Source: Candidatus Acetothermia bacterium JdFR-50 (lineage in GTDB: Bacteria; Bipolaricaulota; Bipolaricaulia; Bipolaricaulales; Bipolaricaulaceae). Taken from it: 10,343 bases of DNA. Below the pieces are notes generated by a model, which was given only the letters and a program-made list of their open reading frames with translations, did not search any database and was not told the origin of the DNA. Position 1 is the stretch's first letter. Each line of letters begins with the position of its first letter. Positions 2,446 through 9,232 of this stretch are shown here, piece by piece. The stretch covers positions 1-10,343 of the forward strand of contig MTNL01000042.1 in the NCBI GenBank assembly GCA_002010365.1, given 5' to 3'. The position numbers were made by a program, and so were the translations under genes.

Positions 2446-3472
2446 TGGGCTGTCGCAACAGAAGGTCCCTCCCCAGGGTGCGGGCGATGTTCCTAAGCTC
2501 CCGCAGGAGCTGGGAGAACTGCTGTGGGAGGAGGGCCTGGGGGCCGTCGCTCAACGCCTCCTCGGGGCGGTGGTGGACCTCCACCATGATGCCGTCCGCC
2601 CCTGCGGCCACTGCGGCCCGGGCCATGGGGATCACCATGTCCCGCCTCCCCGTGGCATGGCTCGGGTCCACGATCACCGGAAGGTGCGTTTCCCGCTTGA
2701 GCACGGGCACCGCGGTGAGATCCAGGGTGAAACGGGCGAAGTCGGAGAAGGCCCTGATCCCTCGCTCACATAGGATCACCTGTTCGTTTCCTTCAGAGAT
2801 TATGTACTCCGCCGCCATGAGAAACTCTTCAAGCGTAGCCGCAAGACCCCGTTTGAGGAGGACGGGCTTGTCCGCCCTGCCCGCCTCCCGGAGGAGGTTG
2901 AAGTTCTGCATATTACGGGCGCCGATCTGGATGATGTCGGCGTAGCGGGAAACCAGTCCCACCTGGGAGGGGTCCATGGCCTCGGTGACCACGTACATCC
3001 CGAACTCATCGGCCGCTTCCCGCAGGAGCTTCAAGCCTTCCTCTCCGAGGCCTTGGAAACTGTACGGAGAGGTACGGGGTTTGAACGCTCCCCCACGAAG
3101 GATCCACACGCCCTCCCGGGCCACCGCCTCGGCGATGGTCCTGATCTGCTCCACGCTTTCCACCGCGCAAGGGCCGGCGATAACCGCGATCTCCCGGGCC
3201 CCGATGGTGACCTCTCCGAGCTCGATCACGGTGTCCAGGGGGTGAAAGGCCCGGCTCGCCAGCTTATAGGGGACACTTACCTCTACGACCTTATAAACCC
3301 CATCCAACACCTCCAGCTCCCGAGGATCTATGCCTCTTTTTTCCCCGATGGCGCCCAAAATGGTGTAGTTCTCCCCTTGGGAAAAGTGGACCTTAAAACC
3401 GAGGGAAAGGAGCTTGTCCGTCACCCGGTCTATTTCCTGTTGACTGGCCCCGGGCTTCATCACCACAATCAT
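2426..3472 (-). CDS. aroF: DAHP synthase, type I-beta, with N-terminal ferredoxin-like regulatory domain
   Basis: This enzyme condenses PEP and erythrose-4-phosphate to DAHP, the first step of the shikimate pathway. Residues 1 to about 70 (starting MIVVMKPGAS) match the ferredoxin-like domain that gives Thermotoga maritima DAHP synthase feedback inhibition by Tyr and Phe. The barrel follows: AGPCAVES with metal-ligand C102, LRGGAFKPRTSPYSFQGLG, IQIGARNMQNF, KPVLLKRG, DPSHATGRRD (His ligand) and VEVHHRPEEALSDG (Glu and Asp ligands). At 348 residues it is slightly longer than the Thermotoga enzyme because of a C-terminal tail. ATG 3472 is fixed by AGGAGGTG at 3487-3480, seven bases upstream and inside aroQ. 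The gene overlaps aroQ by 80 bases and tyrA by 20. Allosteric control by Tyr/Phe is inferred from the domain. Confidence 0.97.
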   Translation of the reverse strand: MIVVMKPGASQQEIDRVTDKLLSLGFKVHFSQGENYTILGAIGEKRGIDPRELEVLDGVYKVVEVSVPYKLASRAFHPLDTVIELGEVTIGAREIAVIAGPCAVESVEQIRTIAEAVAREGVWILRGGAFKPRTSPYSFQGLGEEGLKLLREAADEFGMYVVTEAMDPSQVGLVSRYADIIQIGARNMQNFNLLREAGRADKPVLLKRGLAATLEEFLMAAEYIISEGNEQVILCERGIRAFSDFARFTLDLTAVPVLKRETHLPVIVDPSHATGRRDMVIPMARAAVAAGADGIMVEVHHRPEEALSDGPQALLPQQFSQLLRELRNIARTLGRDLLLRQPNGTRIS

Positions 3473-3734
3473 TTCGCACCACCTCCTCTTGGAGCCTGCG
3501 CGTTTCGGCGATGATCCGCCGGAAGATCCGCGCCACCGCTTCCCCGCTCAAGGGGCCCGGATTTTCACGCCTCAGGCGGGCGATGATCTCCTCCTCCCTC
3601 TCCGGCGAGCGAAGCGGGAGACCCTCCTTGGCTTTTAGGCGTCCGATACGCAACGCCATTTCCGCACGACGGGCAAGGAGGCGAAGGAGTTCCCCGTCTA
3701 TCCGATCAAGCTCCCGTCGCAGTCGTTCTATCAT
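3393..3734 (-). CDS. aroQ: Chorismate mutase, AroQ type
   Basis: This small all-helical enzyme of 113 residues rearranges chorismate to prephenate. The AroQ fold spans residues 1 to about 85. By alignment from memory to the E. coli domain, R6, R23, K34, R46-E47 and Q82 occupy the positions of active-site residues R11, R28, K39, R51-E52 and Q88, so it should be active. ATG 3734 has AAGGAG five bases upstream (3745-3740); the frame stays open further upstream, but that stretch is the terminator hairpin. The last 25 or so residues (Gly/Asp/Arg-rich, low complexity) lie entirely in the 80-base overlap with aroF and are probably a by-product of the overlap. It is the first structural gene after the leader at 3735-3908. 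In Bacillus the same domain is fused to DAHP synthase; here the two are separate but overlapping. Confidence 0.93.
   Translation of the reverse strand: MIERLRRELDRIDGELLRLLARRAEMALRIGRLKAKEGLPLRSPEREEEIIARLRRENPGPLSGEAVARIFRRIIAETRRLQEEVVRNDCGDEARGQSTGNRPGDGQAPFPRF
3480..3487 (-). promoter_or_regulatory. Ribosome binding site of aroF, inside aroQ
   Basis: AGGAGGTG on the minus strand sits seven bases before the aroF ATG and is a near-perfect anti-16S match. It lies within aroQ coding sequence, so aroF translation can initiate while ribosomes still traverse the aroQ tail. It is the main evidence that aroF really starts at 3472, not by a frameshift fusion with aroQ. Confidence 0.85.
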
Positions 3735-3748
3735 CCTTGCTCCTTGAC

Positions 3749-3781
3749 AAATAAAAAGGTCGGGGCCTTTCGGCCCCGACC
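3749..3781 (-). terminator. Intrinsic terminator in the aro operon leader (attenuator)
   Basis: On the minus strand, GGTCGGGGCC, loop GAAA, GGCCCCGACC forms a perfect ten-pair stem (3781-3758), followed immediately by TTTTTATTTG. This is a textbook intrinsic terminator. It ends only about 15 bases before the aroQ ATG and points into the operon, so full termination would silence the genes; that position is typical of an attenuator. It follows hairpin 3823-3786 after four bases. Confidence 0.9.
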
Positions 3782-3785
3782 GCAT

Positions 3786-3823
3786 GGGGTTTAGCGACCT
3801 CTTACGAGGCCGGGCTAAACCCC
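3786..3823 (-). promoter_or_regulatory. Leader hairpin containing the leader-peptide stop codon
   Basis: On the minus strand, GGGGTTTAG pairs with CTAAACCCC (nine pairs). Above a CC bulge, CGGCCTC pairs with GAGGTCG (one G-U), closed by a GTAA tetraloop. The TAG stop of the leader peptide is in the 5' arm. The 3' arm could instead contact the terminator: its AAGAGGTCG can pair with CGACCTTTT (nine pairs, one G-U), and its CCCC with the GGGG of the terminator 5' arm. That would let it act as a switch; the alternative pairing is inferred and weaker than the terminator stem. Confidence 0.7.
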
Positions 3824-3877
3824 GATGGCAAAATAATACCAGCTGCTGTTTTTCAACGCATCAGCACACCACTCCAC
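3815..3877 (-). CDS. Putative aromatic leader peptide with Trp-Tyr-Tyr-Phe codons
   Basis: A short frame ends with codons TGG TAT TAT TTT GCC ATC GGG GTT TAG, encoding SSWYYFAIGV. It directly precedes hairpin 3823-3786 and the terminator at 3781-3749 in front of the aromatic operon. An earlier Trp codon is at 3871-3869. A run of Trp, Tyr, Tyr, Phe codons in this position is what a leader peptide sensing all three aromatic tRNAs would have. The start is unclear. GTG 3877 gives 20 residues, with the purine-rich AGGAAAGAAAG 10 or more bases upstream; GTG 3901 in the same frame gives 28 residues but would be almost leaderless from the predicted transcript start; TTG 3856 gives 13. The lack of a strong ribosome binding site is the main weakness. 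Confidence 0.65.
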   Translation of the reverse strand: MEWCADALKNSSWYYFAIGV

Positions 3878-3914
3878 CGCCGAAAGTCTTTCTTTCCTCA
3901 CCAAGGCAACTTCA

Positions 3915-3944
3915 TATATACGACTTCATCTCCCACTTCGTCAA
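3915..3944 (-). promoter_or_regulatory. Predicted sigma-70-type promoter of the aro operon
   Basis: On the minus strand, TTGACG (3944-3939) is followed by an 18-base spacer and TATATA (3920-3915). The -35 element matches five of six consensus bases. The transcript would start near 3908, giving a leader of about 175 bases through the leader peptide and terminator to aroQ. Confidence 0.6.
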
Positions 3945-3952
3945 GGGCAATG

Positions 3953-3974
3953 AAGTGTGATGCACATCACTCAA
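3953..3974. promoter_or_regulatory. CRP/FNR-family-like palindromic operator
   Basis: The site TGTGA-TGCACA-TCACT (3956-3971) has the spacing and half-sites of the CRP/FNR consensus TGTGA-N6-TCACA, off by one base. The inner GTGATG/CATCAC arms are a perfect inverted repeat. The centre lies about 55 bases upstream of the predicted transcript start at 3908, within the range used by activators of this family. Whether the host has such a regulator is not visible here. Confidence 0.45.
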
Positions 3975-4022
3975 AAGCAGGGGGAAACTCCCGAGGAAGT
4001 CCCCTAATGGCGCGCCAGGGGG
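3973..4022 (-). terminator. Possible weak terminator after purA
   Basis: Just after the purA stop, the minus strand can fold CCCCT...AGGGG around the GGCGCGCC palindrome. Alternatively it can fold GGGGACTT...AGTTTCCCC (4004-3981, one bulge), followed after four bases by TTTT. The two folds share a GGGG arm. Either could end the ileS-birA-purA transcript, but the stem is imperfect and the T-run short. Confidence 0.35.
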
Positions 4023-4029
4023 ATCTGCT

Positions 4030-5277
4030 TTAGCAGAATATGGTCTCCTCGGGCTTCGGCCCCACGCTTATGAGCCGCACGGGAACGCCCAGGGCTTCCT
4101 CGATGTAGCGGAGGTAATCCCTGGCGGCCCGTGGAAGCTCCTCTTTCACCCGGATACCACGCACGTCTTCCTTCCATCCGGGAAGACGTTCGTATATGGG
4201 CCGCGCATGTGATAGATCCATCAAGGAGGAGGGGAACTCCTCCACCCGCTCGTTCCCGATCCGGTAAGCGGTGCAAACGAGGATCTCCGGGAGCCCGGAG
4301 AGGACGTCCAGCTTCGTCACCGCGAGCTCCGTAAAGTCATTGACCCGCTGGGCATAGCGAAGCGCCACGAGATCGAGCCAACCGCAGCGGCGCGGCCTCC
4401 CCGTGGTGGCGCCGTACTCCATCCCCTTCCGCCGCAGGAGCTCCCCCAGCTGGCCCACGTCCTCGGTGGGAAACGGCCCCTCCCCCACCCGGGTGGTGTA
4501 GGCCTTGAGGACCCCGATTATCCGCTCCACTTTTTTGGGGGAGATACCGGCTCCGGAGGCGATCCCGTGGACGGTGGTGTGGGAAGAGGTGACGTAGGGA
4601 TAGGTACCGAGATCGATGTCCAGTAGCGTCCCCTGGGCACCCTCGAAGAGGACATTCCGTCCCTCCGCCAACGCTGCGGTGATCGTTCGTATCGAGTCGC
4701 CGATCGTGTCCTTGAACGCAGCGTAAAACTCGAATAGCTCCTGGACCACCCGCTCGGGATCCATGGGCGGGCGGTAGGGATTCCGGTGGGCCCCCTCGAG
4801 CCGGGAGAGCCGTTCCCGGGCTACATCCTGGTCCGCTAGGTCCGCGAACCGGATACCCAGGCGCAGGGCTTTGTCTGCGTAGGCGGGGCCGATCCCCCGG
4901 CGGGTGGTGCCGATGGACTTCGCGATCCCGCTACCTACCTCCATCTCCTTGTGGTGAGGAAGGATCACATGGGCCCGGTCGGAGATGAGGAGCTTAGGGA
5001 CGGGGCGGCCTTGTTTTTCCACCTCCTGGAGTTCCTCCCGCAGGACCCAAGGGTCGATCACCATGCCGTGGGCCAAAACACCCACAGTTCCTTCCCTAAG
5101 CGCCCCTGCGGGGAGGTGGTGGAGGCGGATCTCCCCATAGGAATCCACCACCGTGTGCCCGGCGTTGGGCCCCCCGTTGAAGCGGACGACGAGATCCACT
5201 CCTTCCGACAAGAGATGGGAGATCTTCCCCTTTCCCTCGTCGCCCCACTGCGCCCCGATGACCGCTATTCCCGGCAT
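4030..5277 (-). CDS. purA: Adenylosuccinate synthetase
   Basis: This 415-residue cytoplasmic enzyme uses GTP to join IMP and aspartate, the first committed step to AMP. The N-terminal QWGDEGKGK (10-18) carries the general base D13, and NGGPNAGHT (34-42) carries H41, both at the E. coli numbering. GTTRRGIGP (123-131), FEGAQGTLLDIDLGTYPYVT, TRVGEGPFPTE, TTGRPRRCGWLD and KLDVLSG all follow in family order, so no domain is missing. It is a little shorter than the usual 425-430 residues. ATG 5277 lies inside the birA 3' end (13-base overlap), with GGTGA seven bases upstream as a modest ribosome binding site. It is the last gene of the ileS-birA-purA group. No purine riboswitch or PurR-like site is visible next to it, so expression probably follows the ileS promoter. 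Confidence 0.98.
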   Translation of the reverse strand: MPGIAVIGAQWGDEGKGKISHLLSEGVDLVVRFNGGPNAGHTVVDSYGEIRLHHLPAGALREGTVGVLAHGMVIDPWVLREELQEVEKQGRPVPKLLISDRAHVILPHHKEMEVGSGIAKSIGTTRRGIGPAYADKALRLGIRFADLADQDVARERLSRLEGAHRNPYRPPMDPERVVQELFEFYAAFKDTIGDSIRTITAALAEGRNVLFEGAQGTLLDIDLGTYPYVTSSHTTVHGIASGAGISPKKVERIIGVLKAYTTRVGEGPFPTEDVGQLGELLRRKGMEYGATTGRPRRCGWLDLVALRYAQRVNDFTELAVTKLDVLSGLPEILVCTAYRIGNERVEEFPSSLMDLSHARPIYERLPGWKEDVRGIRVKEELPRAARDYLRYIEEALGVPVRLISVGPKPEETIFC

Positions 5278-9088: not shown

Positions 9089-9140
9089 GCGGACGTGCCC
9101 GCGGCCTCTTCGCGGCTTCCCTGCCCCCTAGCGGGGCAGG
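9089..9140 (-). promoter_or_regulatory. GC-rich hairpin array in the ileS leader
   Basis: Minus-strand hairpin A (9140-9120) is CCTGCCCC-GCTAG-GGGGCAGG, a perfect eight-pair stem whose loop holds the stop codon of the leader frame. Hairpin B (9115-9099) is CCGCG-AAGAGGC-CGCGG. Hairpin C (9102-9089) is GCGGG-CACG-TCCGC, followed by the T-rich ATTTATCGTTTACGTTT. B and C share 9099-9102 and exclude each other, as expected of a switch. C is short for an intrinsic terminator, so control could act on transcription or on translation. Confidence 0.55.
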
Positions 9141-9172
9141 ATAATGAGGGGACCACGTATGGGCCAAAACAT
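9128..9172 (-). CDS. Putative isoleucine leader peptide of ileS
   Basis: A 14-codon frame, MFWPIRGPLIILPR, starts at ATG 9172 with GGAGGT (9183-9178) five bases upstream, one of the best ribosome binding sites in the window. Three of its codons are isoleucine and use all three synonyms: ATA, ATT and ATC; the last two are adjacent and sit just before hairpin A, whose loop contains the TAG stop. The predicted transcript start (about 9185) is immediately before the binding site. Leader-peptide control of a synthetase gene is known for E. coli pheST, so a frame of this kind upstream of ileS is a coherent candidate for sensing uncharged tRNA-Ile. One Trp and one Phe codon are also present. No homologue search was possible. 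Confidence 0.65.
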   Translation of the reverse strand: MFWPIRGPLIILPR

Positions 9173-9190
9173 CTAGGACCTCCGTGAACG

Positions 9191-9219
9191 ATTATAGGAA
9201 AAGAAAAAGCGGGGTACAA
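9191..9219 (-). promoter_or_regulatory. Predicted sigma-70-type promoter of ileS
   Basis: A perfect TATAAT (9196-9191) lies 17 bases downstream of TTGTAC (9219-9214, four of six consensus bases). Transcription would start near 9185, giving a leader of about 145 bases to ileS. The -35 element lies within the inverted repeat 9210-9225. Confidence 0.7.
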
Positions 9220-9232
9220 TCCCCGTTTTTTT
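9204..9232. terminator. Bidirectional terminator-like hairpin at the ileS promoter
   Basis: CGGGG-TACAAT-CCCCG (9210-9225) is flanked by AAAAAG on the left and TTTTTTT on the right of the plus strand, so it looks like an intrinsic terminator in both directions. It coincides with the -35 element of the predicted ileS promoter. No plus-strand gene ends here, so it may insulate the divergent permease from antisense readthrough, or serve as an operator. Confidence 0.55.

Follow-up and report, generated by a model that had tools for sequence, protein, structure and literature searches.

The window analysed here, a 10,343-nt stretch of DNA, carries an operon for the common aromatic pathway that is preceded by a short frame with codons for Trp, Tyr, and Phe, raising the question of whether translation of that frame controls transcription of the operon and, if so, which amino acids are sensed and by which RNA structure. 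All of the parts named in a preliminary description of the locus (a frame with TGG TAT TAT TTT, a stop codon in a hairpin, a terminator, and the aro operon) were present, on the minus strand. Judged from the sequence and its relatives, the locus is very likely a ribosome-mediated transcription attenuator of aroQ-aroF-tyrA-aroA-aroE, while the full model, in which the hairpin holding the stop codon (hairpin 1) acts as the antiterminator in the starvation state, is given a probability of about 0.6.

The leader and the operon in the window

The genes behind the terminator follow the order aroQ-aroF-tyrA-aroA-aroE, all on the minus strand. The first, aroQ (chorismate mutase, PF01817; 3393–3734), has its ATG at 3734 behind AAGGAG and is followed by aroF (DAHP synthase, profile matches TIGR01361 and PF00793; 2426–3472), tyrA (prephenate dehydrogenase with an ACT domain, PF02153, PF20463, and PF01842; 1357–2445), aroA (EPSP synthase, profile matches TIGR01356 and PF00275; 74–1360), and the first 28 codons of aroE (1–84), a fragment cut by the window edge that had no Pfam match and was named from sequence. 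Pfam cut-offs were passed by aroQ, aroF, tyrA, and aroA; for NCBIfam, aroF and aroA were above the cut-offs, with aroQ (67.5 of 69.55 bits) and tyrA below. The aroQ gene overlaps aroF by 80 nt in a different frame (3393–3472), and a comparable overlap occurs in the related genome G001.

Upstream on the same strand, a −35 box (TTGACG, 3939–3944) and a −10 box (TATATA, 3915–3920) separated by an 18-nt spacer were read directly, with similar boxes ahead of the leaders in 11 relatives. This promoter (3944–3915) was absent from a consensus promoter scan of the window because its −10 box lacks the final T. The leader frame, VRKERLSAVEWCADALKNSSWYYFAIGV (3815–3901), runs for 28 codons from GTG at 3901, 13 nt downstream of the −10 box, to TAG at 3815, and ends in WYYFAIGV, with the control codons TGG TAT TAT TTT at 3830–3841. 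Hairpin 1 (3786–3823; 16 pairs, GUAA loop) holds the leader stop UAG (3817–3815) in its 5' arm. The GC-rich terminator hairpin, GGUCGGGGCC-GAAA-GGCCCCGACC (3758–3781; 10 pairs), has TTTTTATT directly 3' of it, the U tract at 3750–3757 being read from the sequence, and this intrinsic terminator sits between the leader and aroQ. The preliminary description had noted that the leader start lacks a clear ribosome-binding site; none is there, though the concern is removed by the short distance, about 13 nt, between the −10 box and the start, which accounts for the absence and makes the GTG start probably near-leaderless.

The 10-pair terminator stem is the longest of 15 terminator-like sites in the window (shuffle mean, 8.2), and folding of the leader region (z = −6.2) and of hairpin 1 by itself (z = −5.6) was stronger than in shuffles. 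The purA gene upstream carries its own terminator-like site (4004–3983), and relatives have different upstream neighbours (G001 has five tRNA genes there, and G004 has two on the opposite strand), so the terminator at 3781–3750 belongs to the aro operon. No Rfam match reached the gathering score in the window, and a T-box or other Rfam leader identity was rejected on that ground; the four sub-threshold matches within 3700–4030 (E, 0.2–0.54) included no leader families. Elsewhere in the window, two terminator-like hairpins lie ahead of ileS (9089–9225, minus strand), where neither a T-box nor any other Rfam model reached the gathering score.

Conservation and codon content of the leaders

By itself, the aromatic run of the window is not beyond chance (p = 0.12 against dinucleotide shuffles of a 350-base stretch) and counts as significant because it is conserved in relatives; that the leader is rich in end-product codons, as in the attenuator class, is likewise established by comparison and not by the window by itself. 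Five other genomes of the genus were searched, of which three (G001, G002, and G004) join the window as AroF-bearing; the remaining two, which are incomplete, yielded no AroF and no leader. The four leaders end in WYYFAIGV (window), WYYFATGV (G001), and GYYFPGGV (G002 and G004), with the stop codon within hairpin 1 in each. The YYF codons, the frame, the hairpin, and the terminator were kept in all four operon-bearing genomes, such that relatives retain the Tyr and Phe codons and the frame along with the terminator. Of the WYYF run whose conservation had been looked for, YYF stood and the Trp codon beside it did not, a Gly codon taking its place in G002 and G004. The leader of G004 is devoid of Trp codons; that of G002 has two further upstream. 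Pairwise identity among the four genomes was 83–98% from the control codons to the terminator, 28–71% in the 5' part of the leader, and 64–85% in the first 240 nt of aroQ. The YYF codons differ by one synonymous change, and hardly any covariation was seen within the genus, where the sequence between the control codons and the terminator is nearly invariant. Counted by hand, the distance from the −10 box to the ATG was 13 nt in G002 and G004 and 15 nt in G001, and the corresponding distance was 9 nt in four leaders of family f5 and three of family f2; with starts 13–15 nt (genus) or 9 nt (f5 and f2) behind the −10 box, the mRNAs would be near-leaderless.

In a set of 100 genomes from the phylum searched for AroF, 22 carried AroF and every one of these had an aromatic-rich leader ahead of an aroF operon (by eye, checked against the DNA). 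For the 26 operons involved, the aromatic count in the last 16 codons of the best frame averaged 5.0 on the forward strand and 1.7 on the reverse strand, and p < 0.05 against shuffles was reached by 16 operons forward and by none in reverse; these counts retain, as picked, four operons in which the automatic choice missed the leader found by eye (G001, G070, G079, and the second aroF of G058), the probable cause being a 60-codon limit. With the frame and YYF present in four genomes of the genus and aromatic leaders in 22 of 22 AroF genomes, the earlier proposal of a leader-peptide attenuator before a common aromatic operon is upheld. The same observations, together with the conserved promoter spacing, weigh against the view that the terminator (or insulator) is unregulated and the frame accidental, a highly improbable reading that draws on the great strength of the terminator in all modelled states. 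Among the papers listed in the literature searches, which mostly excluded subscription journals, none was seen to describe aromatic leaders for this phylum. Beyond the phylum, the best 80 AroF loci among the matches listed included 79 with upstream DNA, 38 of which lacked a long frame extending to aroF (mean aromatic count, 3.0 forward and 2.2 reverse). Three convincing candidate aroF leaders were seen by eye among these best 80 loci: FYSYYYFPLRGK (L065) and SFGYFYFPQRGI (L077), both from records titled Bacteroidetes, and FYSYFYFPHRGI (L066), from a record titled Candidatus Kryptoniota.

Codon content differed with the type of operon. Where a genome carries two aroF operons (four genomes), the Phe:Tyr ratio of the leaders was 13:1 before aroF-aroA and 1:14 before aroF-tyrA (Fisher p = 2.9e-6), from which it follows that leader codons track the branch served by the operon. 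Adding three more aroF-aroA leaders gives 25:1 against 1:14 (p = 6e-9), though the split rests on the four two-operon genomes because one of the additions, G065, with its aroF split over contigs, was placed in the aroF-aroA group by inference. Across L118–L123, L134, and L129–L132, Phe-rich leaders (e.g., FIFPTFWPPRGA) precede aroF-aroA and Tyr/Trp-rich leaders precede aroF-tyrA.

Some peptide endings are shared within and between families (by eye): YYFA.G(V/F) by two leaders of the window's genus and two of f2, and FWPP by five aroF-aroA leaders of sister families. Such conserved C-terminal peptides, together with the ability of proline pairs to stall ribosomes, could speak for arrest by the nascent peptide in response to a free amino acid and not to hungry codons. 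This is very unlikely, as the GV-stop portion in the genus is fixed by the RNA hairpin, and the peptides diverge between families while their aromatic content persists.

In the 15 leaders from genomes with a single AroF (window included), Phe and Tyr occurred together without exception, whereas Trp was present in the last 16 codons of seven (window, G001, G002, G021, G006, G082, and G089) and missing from eight, G004 of the window's own genus among them. The idea in the preliminary description that a single leader covers all three residues is therefore only partly supported. Equal sensing of Trp, Tyr, and Phe by one leader, which the seven leaders with W, Y, and F together would favour, is accordingly unlikely; in addition, the AroR leader of Corynebacterium glutamicum has Phe-Tyr-Phe, yet Tyr availability was without effect according to a review (PMC11802643).

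Hairpin geometry and the proposed mechanism

Thirteen leaders were of the terminator type (four from the genus, four f5, and five f2). In every one, the 5' arm of hairpin 1 took in part or all of the stop codon (all three bases in 10 leaders), and the gap between hairpin 1 and the terminator was 1–5 nt. The stability of hairpin 1 relative to shuffles ranged from z = −1.8 to −8.7 (mean, −4.6), with three f5 leaders at just −1.8 to −2.3. Four leaders of f5 trp operons (two from G044) had an identical layout by eye, ending in SWPWLN (twice), SWLWIV, and WIFWPWFN. With the stop codon inside hairpin 1, a ribosome on the control codons leaves hairpin 1 free, and a ribosome on the stop opens it. The constancy of this arrangement suggests, with moderate confidence, that hairpin 1 is the starvation-state structure, for which static energies are no proof.

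The competing possibility is a classical trp-type attenuator, in which stalling of the ribosome would release the 3' arm of hairpin 1 for pairing with terminator arm 3 (CCCC/GGGG); this would apply mainly to Phe in the A site, the one position at which the ribosome masks the base of hairpin 1. It was evaluated by masking 13 nt from the A-site codon on, folding the remainder up to terminator arm 4, and scoring the energy gained when terminator arm 3 pairs upstream, with four E. coli attenuators as controls. The controls gained 10.5 (trpL), 14.9 (pheL), 13.7 (thrL), and 8.5 kcal/mol (hisL) with the best control codon in the A site. Some other control codons gave smaller gains, as little as 3.2 kcal/mol for the first His, and the gains with the ribosome on the stop were 0, 0, 0, and 3.2 kcal/mol, respectively. 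All four genus leaders gained 4.9–5.1 kcal/mol with the Phe codon in the A site. The window and G001, however, gained 2.0 at Trp and Tyr, 4.9 at Phe, and 5.5 at the stop, such that the pairing would not discriminate; the values for G002 and G004 were 0 at Tyr, 5.1 at Phe, and 3.2–3.3 at the stop. Three of the five f2 leaders showed a weak form of this alternative pairing (5.5–5.9 at the Phe of the run against 1.7–2.8 at the stop), whereas the other two gained little (1.9–2.1 and 1.0–3.5), and the f5 leaders gained more at the stop (4.9–5.4) than at the last Phe (0.7–4.1). The antiterminator pairing put forward in the preliminary description was thus not borne out for the window (5.5 at the stop against 2.0–4.9 at control codons, compared with 0–3.2 against 8.5–14.9 in the much clearer E. 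coli controls), and the trp-type explanation is rather doubtful, though the strongest of the rivals.

When the ribosome was masked at every position of the window leader and the remainder folded, no pairing that excludes the terminator was found. Hairpin 1 and the terminator coexist in the minimum-energy fold, and the terminator state was favoured by 17–21 kcal/mol at every modelled ribosome position; the preference was 21–27 kcal/mol in hisL, a working attenuator, about 5–14 in trpL, and 4–19 in pheL. With Trp in the A site, CAU 5' of hairpin 1 can pair with AUG 3' of it, an extension that takes hairpin 1 to one base or less from the terminator. A masking scan of the four f5 trp leaders found no common antiterminator.

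Under the favoured model, with hairpin 1 as the antiterminator, a near-leaderless mRNA would be translated from its 5' end to give the 28-residue leader. While charged tRNA is ample, the ribosome would reach the stop inside hairpin 1 and hold that hairpin open during synthesis of the terminator, and transcription would end. With Phe or Tyr scarce (in some species also Trp), the ribosome would stall on the WYYF run just 5' of hairpin 1, allowing hairpin 1 or a variant of it to form against the base of the terminator, and transcription would read on. Of these elements, the frame, its codons, the two hairpins with their conservation, and the recurrence across the phylum are observed, whereas we infer the promoter and start, translation of the leader, stalling, the ON state under starvation, and the antiterminator role of hairpin 1; by analogy with the C. 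glutamicum ilvBNC attenuator, hairpin 1 may adjoin or compete for the terminator base.

Translational attenuation was considered for nine leaders without a terminator by eye (G063 was also scanned and had none; the four aroF-tyrA leaders were left out) and was rejected as a general explanation, with pairing between leader and first-gene ribosome site beyond shuffles in one of the nine (G067). In that genome, the Phe codons of the leader (CTTCCCGACCTTTT; L120) are complementary over 14 bases to the aroF ribosome site, and a translational switch is possible there.

A candidate +1 frameshift at a Trp codon

A search with PF00425 in the 100 genomes returned 21 trpE-like genes or pieces in 17 of them, the name trpE resting on this profile; when one of them (G053) was scanned against NCBIfam, the top match was to anthranilate synthase component I and stayed below the cut-off. 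In 12 genomes, 13 of the 21 show a short frame that has a start of its own and terminates soon after (G/S)DR(V/L)W or a GGxVW form, and trpE continues in the +1 frame (L150:830–900 in G053, L151 on the minus strand in G001, L149, L152, L153, L154, L155, L156, L157, L158, L160, L165, and L166). The first ATG of the trpE frame is >400 nt downstream in 11 of the 13, and an upstream ATG in the open frame occurs in two (G058 and G063). The other eight lack the string, some since the contig ends, and G082 has an ordinary start. The site, GGTGAT-CGN-(G/C)TT-TGG, is frameshift-like: the elements of GGTGAT-3 nt-(C/G)TT-TGG are spaced as in the frameshift signal of prfB, which consists of an SD-like sequence, three nt, CTT, and TGA (PMC12421855); TGG takes the place of TGA. 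The 15-base pattern occurred 39 times in the 100 genomes, compared to three times for the reversed pattern; trpE accounted for 11 of the occurrences and trpS for seven, with two ahead of TrpB-like genes, one in the G058 aroF-tyrA leader, 13 elsewhere, and five others.

Genes for trpS (Trp-tRNA ligase) start with the string and a short frame in seven genomes of families f3 and f4 (L193, L195, L196, L197, L198, L200, and L201), identified from L196, which was above the TIGR00233 cut-off, and for the others by sequence. The first ATG in the trpS frame lies 196–211 nt behind the TGG in three and 22–28 nt in four. The string also occurs before a TrpB-like gene in two f5 genomes and in the aroF-tyrA leader of G058 (L187:1500, L189 at 871 on the minus strand, and L191:1500). 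At the TrpB-like loci, named from NF009057 for L187, the +1 frame closes upstream of the gene after encoding a peptide of 48–55 codons, similar by eye in the two genomes.

Expression of the trpE-like genes thus appears to require +1 frameshifting at a Trp codon, and such a frameshift is a candidate mechanism for trpE and trpS alike; if true, TrpE would be made on Trp starvation. The rival explanation is translation starting at the GTG inside the string. No report of a Trp-codon frameshift in trpE or trpS was seen among the papers listed in the literature searches, where subscription journals were mostly lacking. In f5 trp operons (L150, L153, L158, and L160), a further leader with a stop-codon hairpin and a terminator lies ~150 nt before the trpE start region, and these operons possibly have two Trp sensors in series. 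Somewhat short of even odds is the broader proposal that the aromatic pathway of the phylum is run by ribosomes at hungry codons in several forms, namely attenuators with hairpin 1 as antiterminator, leader codons matched to the branch, and +1 frameshifting on a Trp codon of trpE and trpS.

Relation to known systems

Leader-peptide attenuation is textbook knowledge, and multi-amino-acid leaders such as thrL are well known. The AroR leader of C. glutamicum aroF was reportedly described by Neshat et al. in 2014. New, as far as the literature searched extends, are the phylum-wide set of leaders, the codon split by branch, and the stop-codon-hairpin layout. In a poorly known phylum, leader-peptide control is thereby extended to the common aromatic pathway, the comparison shows that leader codons track the branch an operon serves, and an attenuator layout is offered with the stop codon in a hairpin adjoining the terminator and a near-leaderless start.

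Two sources give C. glutamicum aroF a Phe-Tyr-Phe leader (PMC11802643, PMC4046766), which resembles the present leaders in placing aromatic codons ahead of a DAHP synthase operon. By description, Phe limitation acts there and Tyr limitation does not; the leaders here have longer and varied runs of Tyr, Phe, and Trp, and that of the window precedes aroQ-aroF-tyrA-aroA-aroE. An aroF attenuator sensing Tyr-tRNA is listed in a Shewanella prediction paper (PMC2659441). The C. glutamicum ilvBNC attenuator (PMC11857589) has a near-leaderless multi-amino-acid leader, with ilvL beginning a single nt from the transcription start; the antiterminator hairpin adjoins the terminator and overlaps the terminator base, similar to the layout proposed here. 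Its antiterminator and terminator share a boundary trinucleotide, however, whereas the window has just a weak extension of hairpin 1 to the terminator base. With pheL, trpL, thrL, and hisL of E. coli, the window shares a leader ORF, end-product codons, and a terminator before the first gene, but in those attenuators the antiterminator is strong at the stall and weak or lost at the stop, which is not so in the window.
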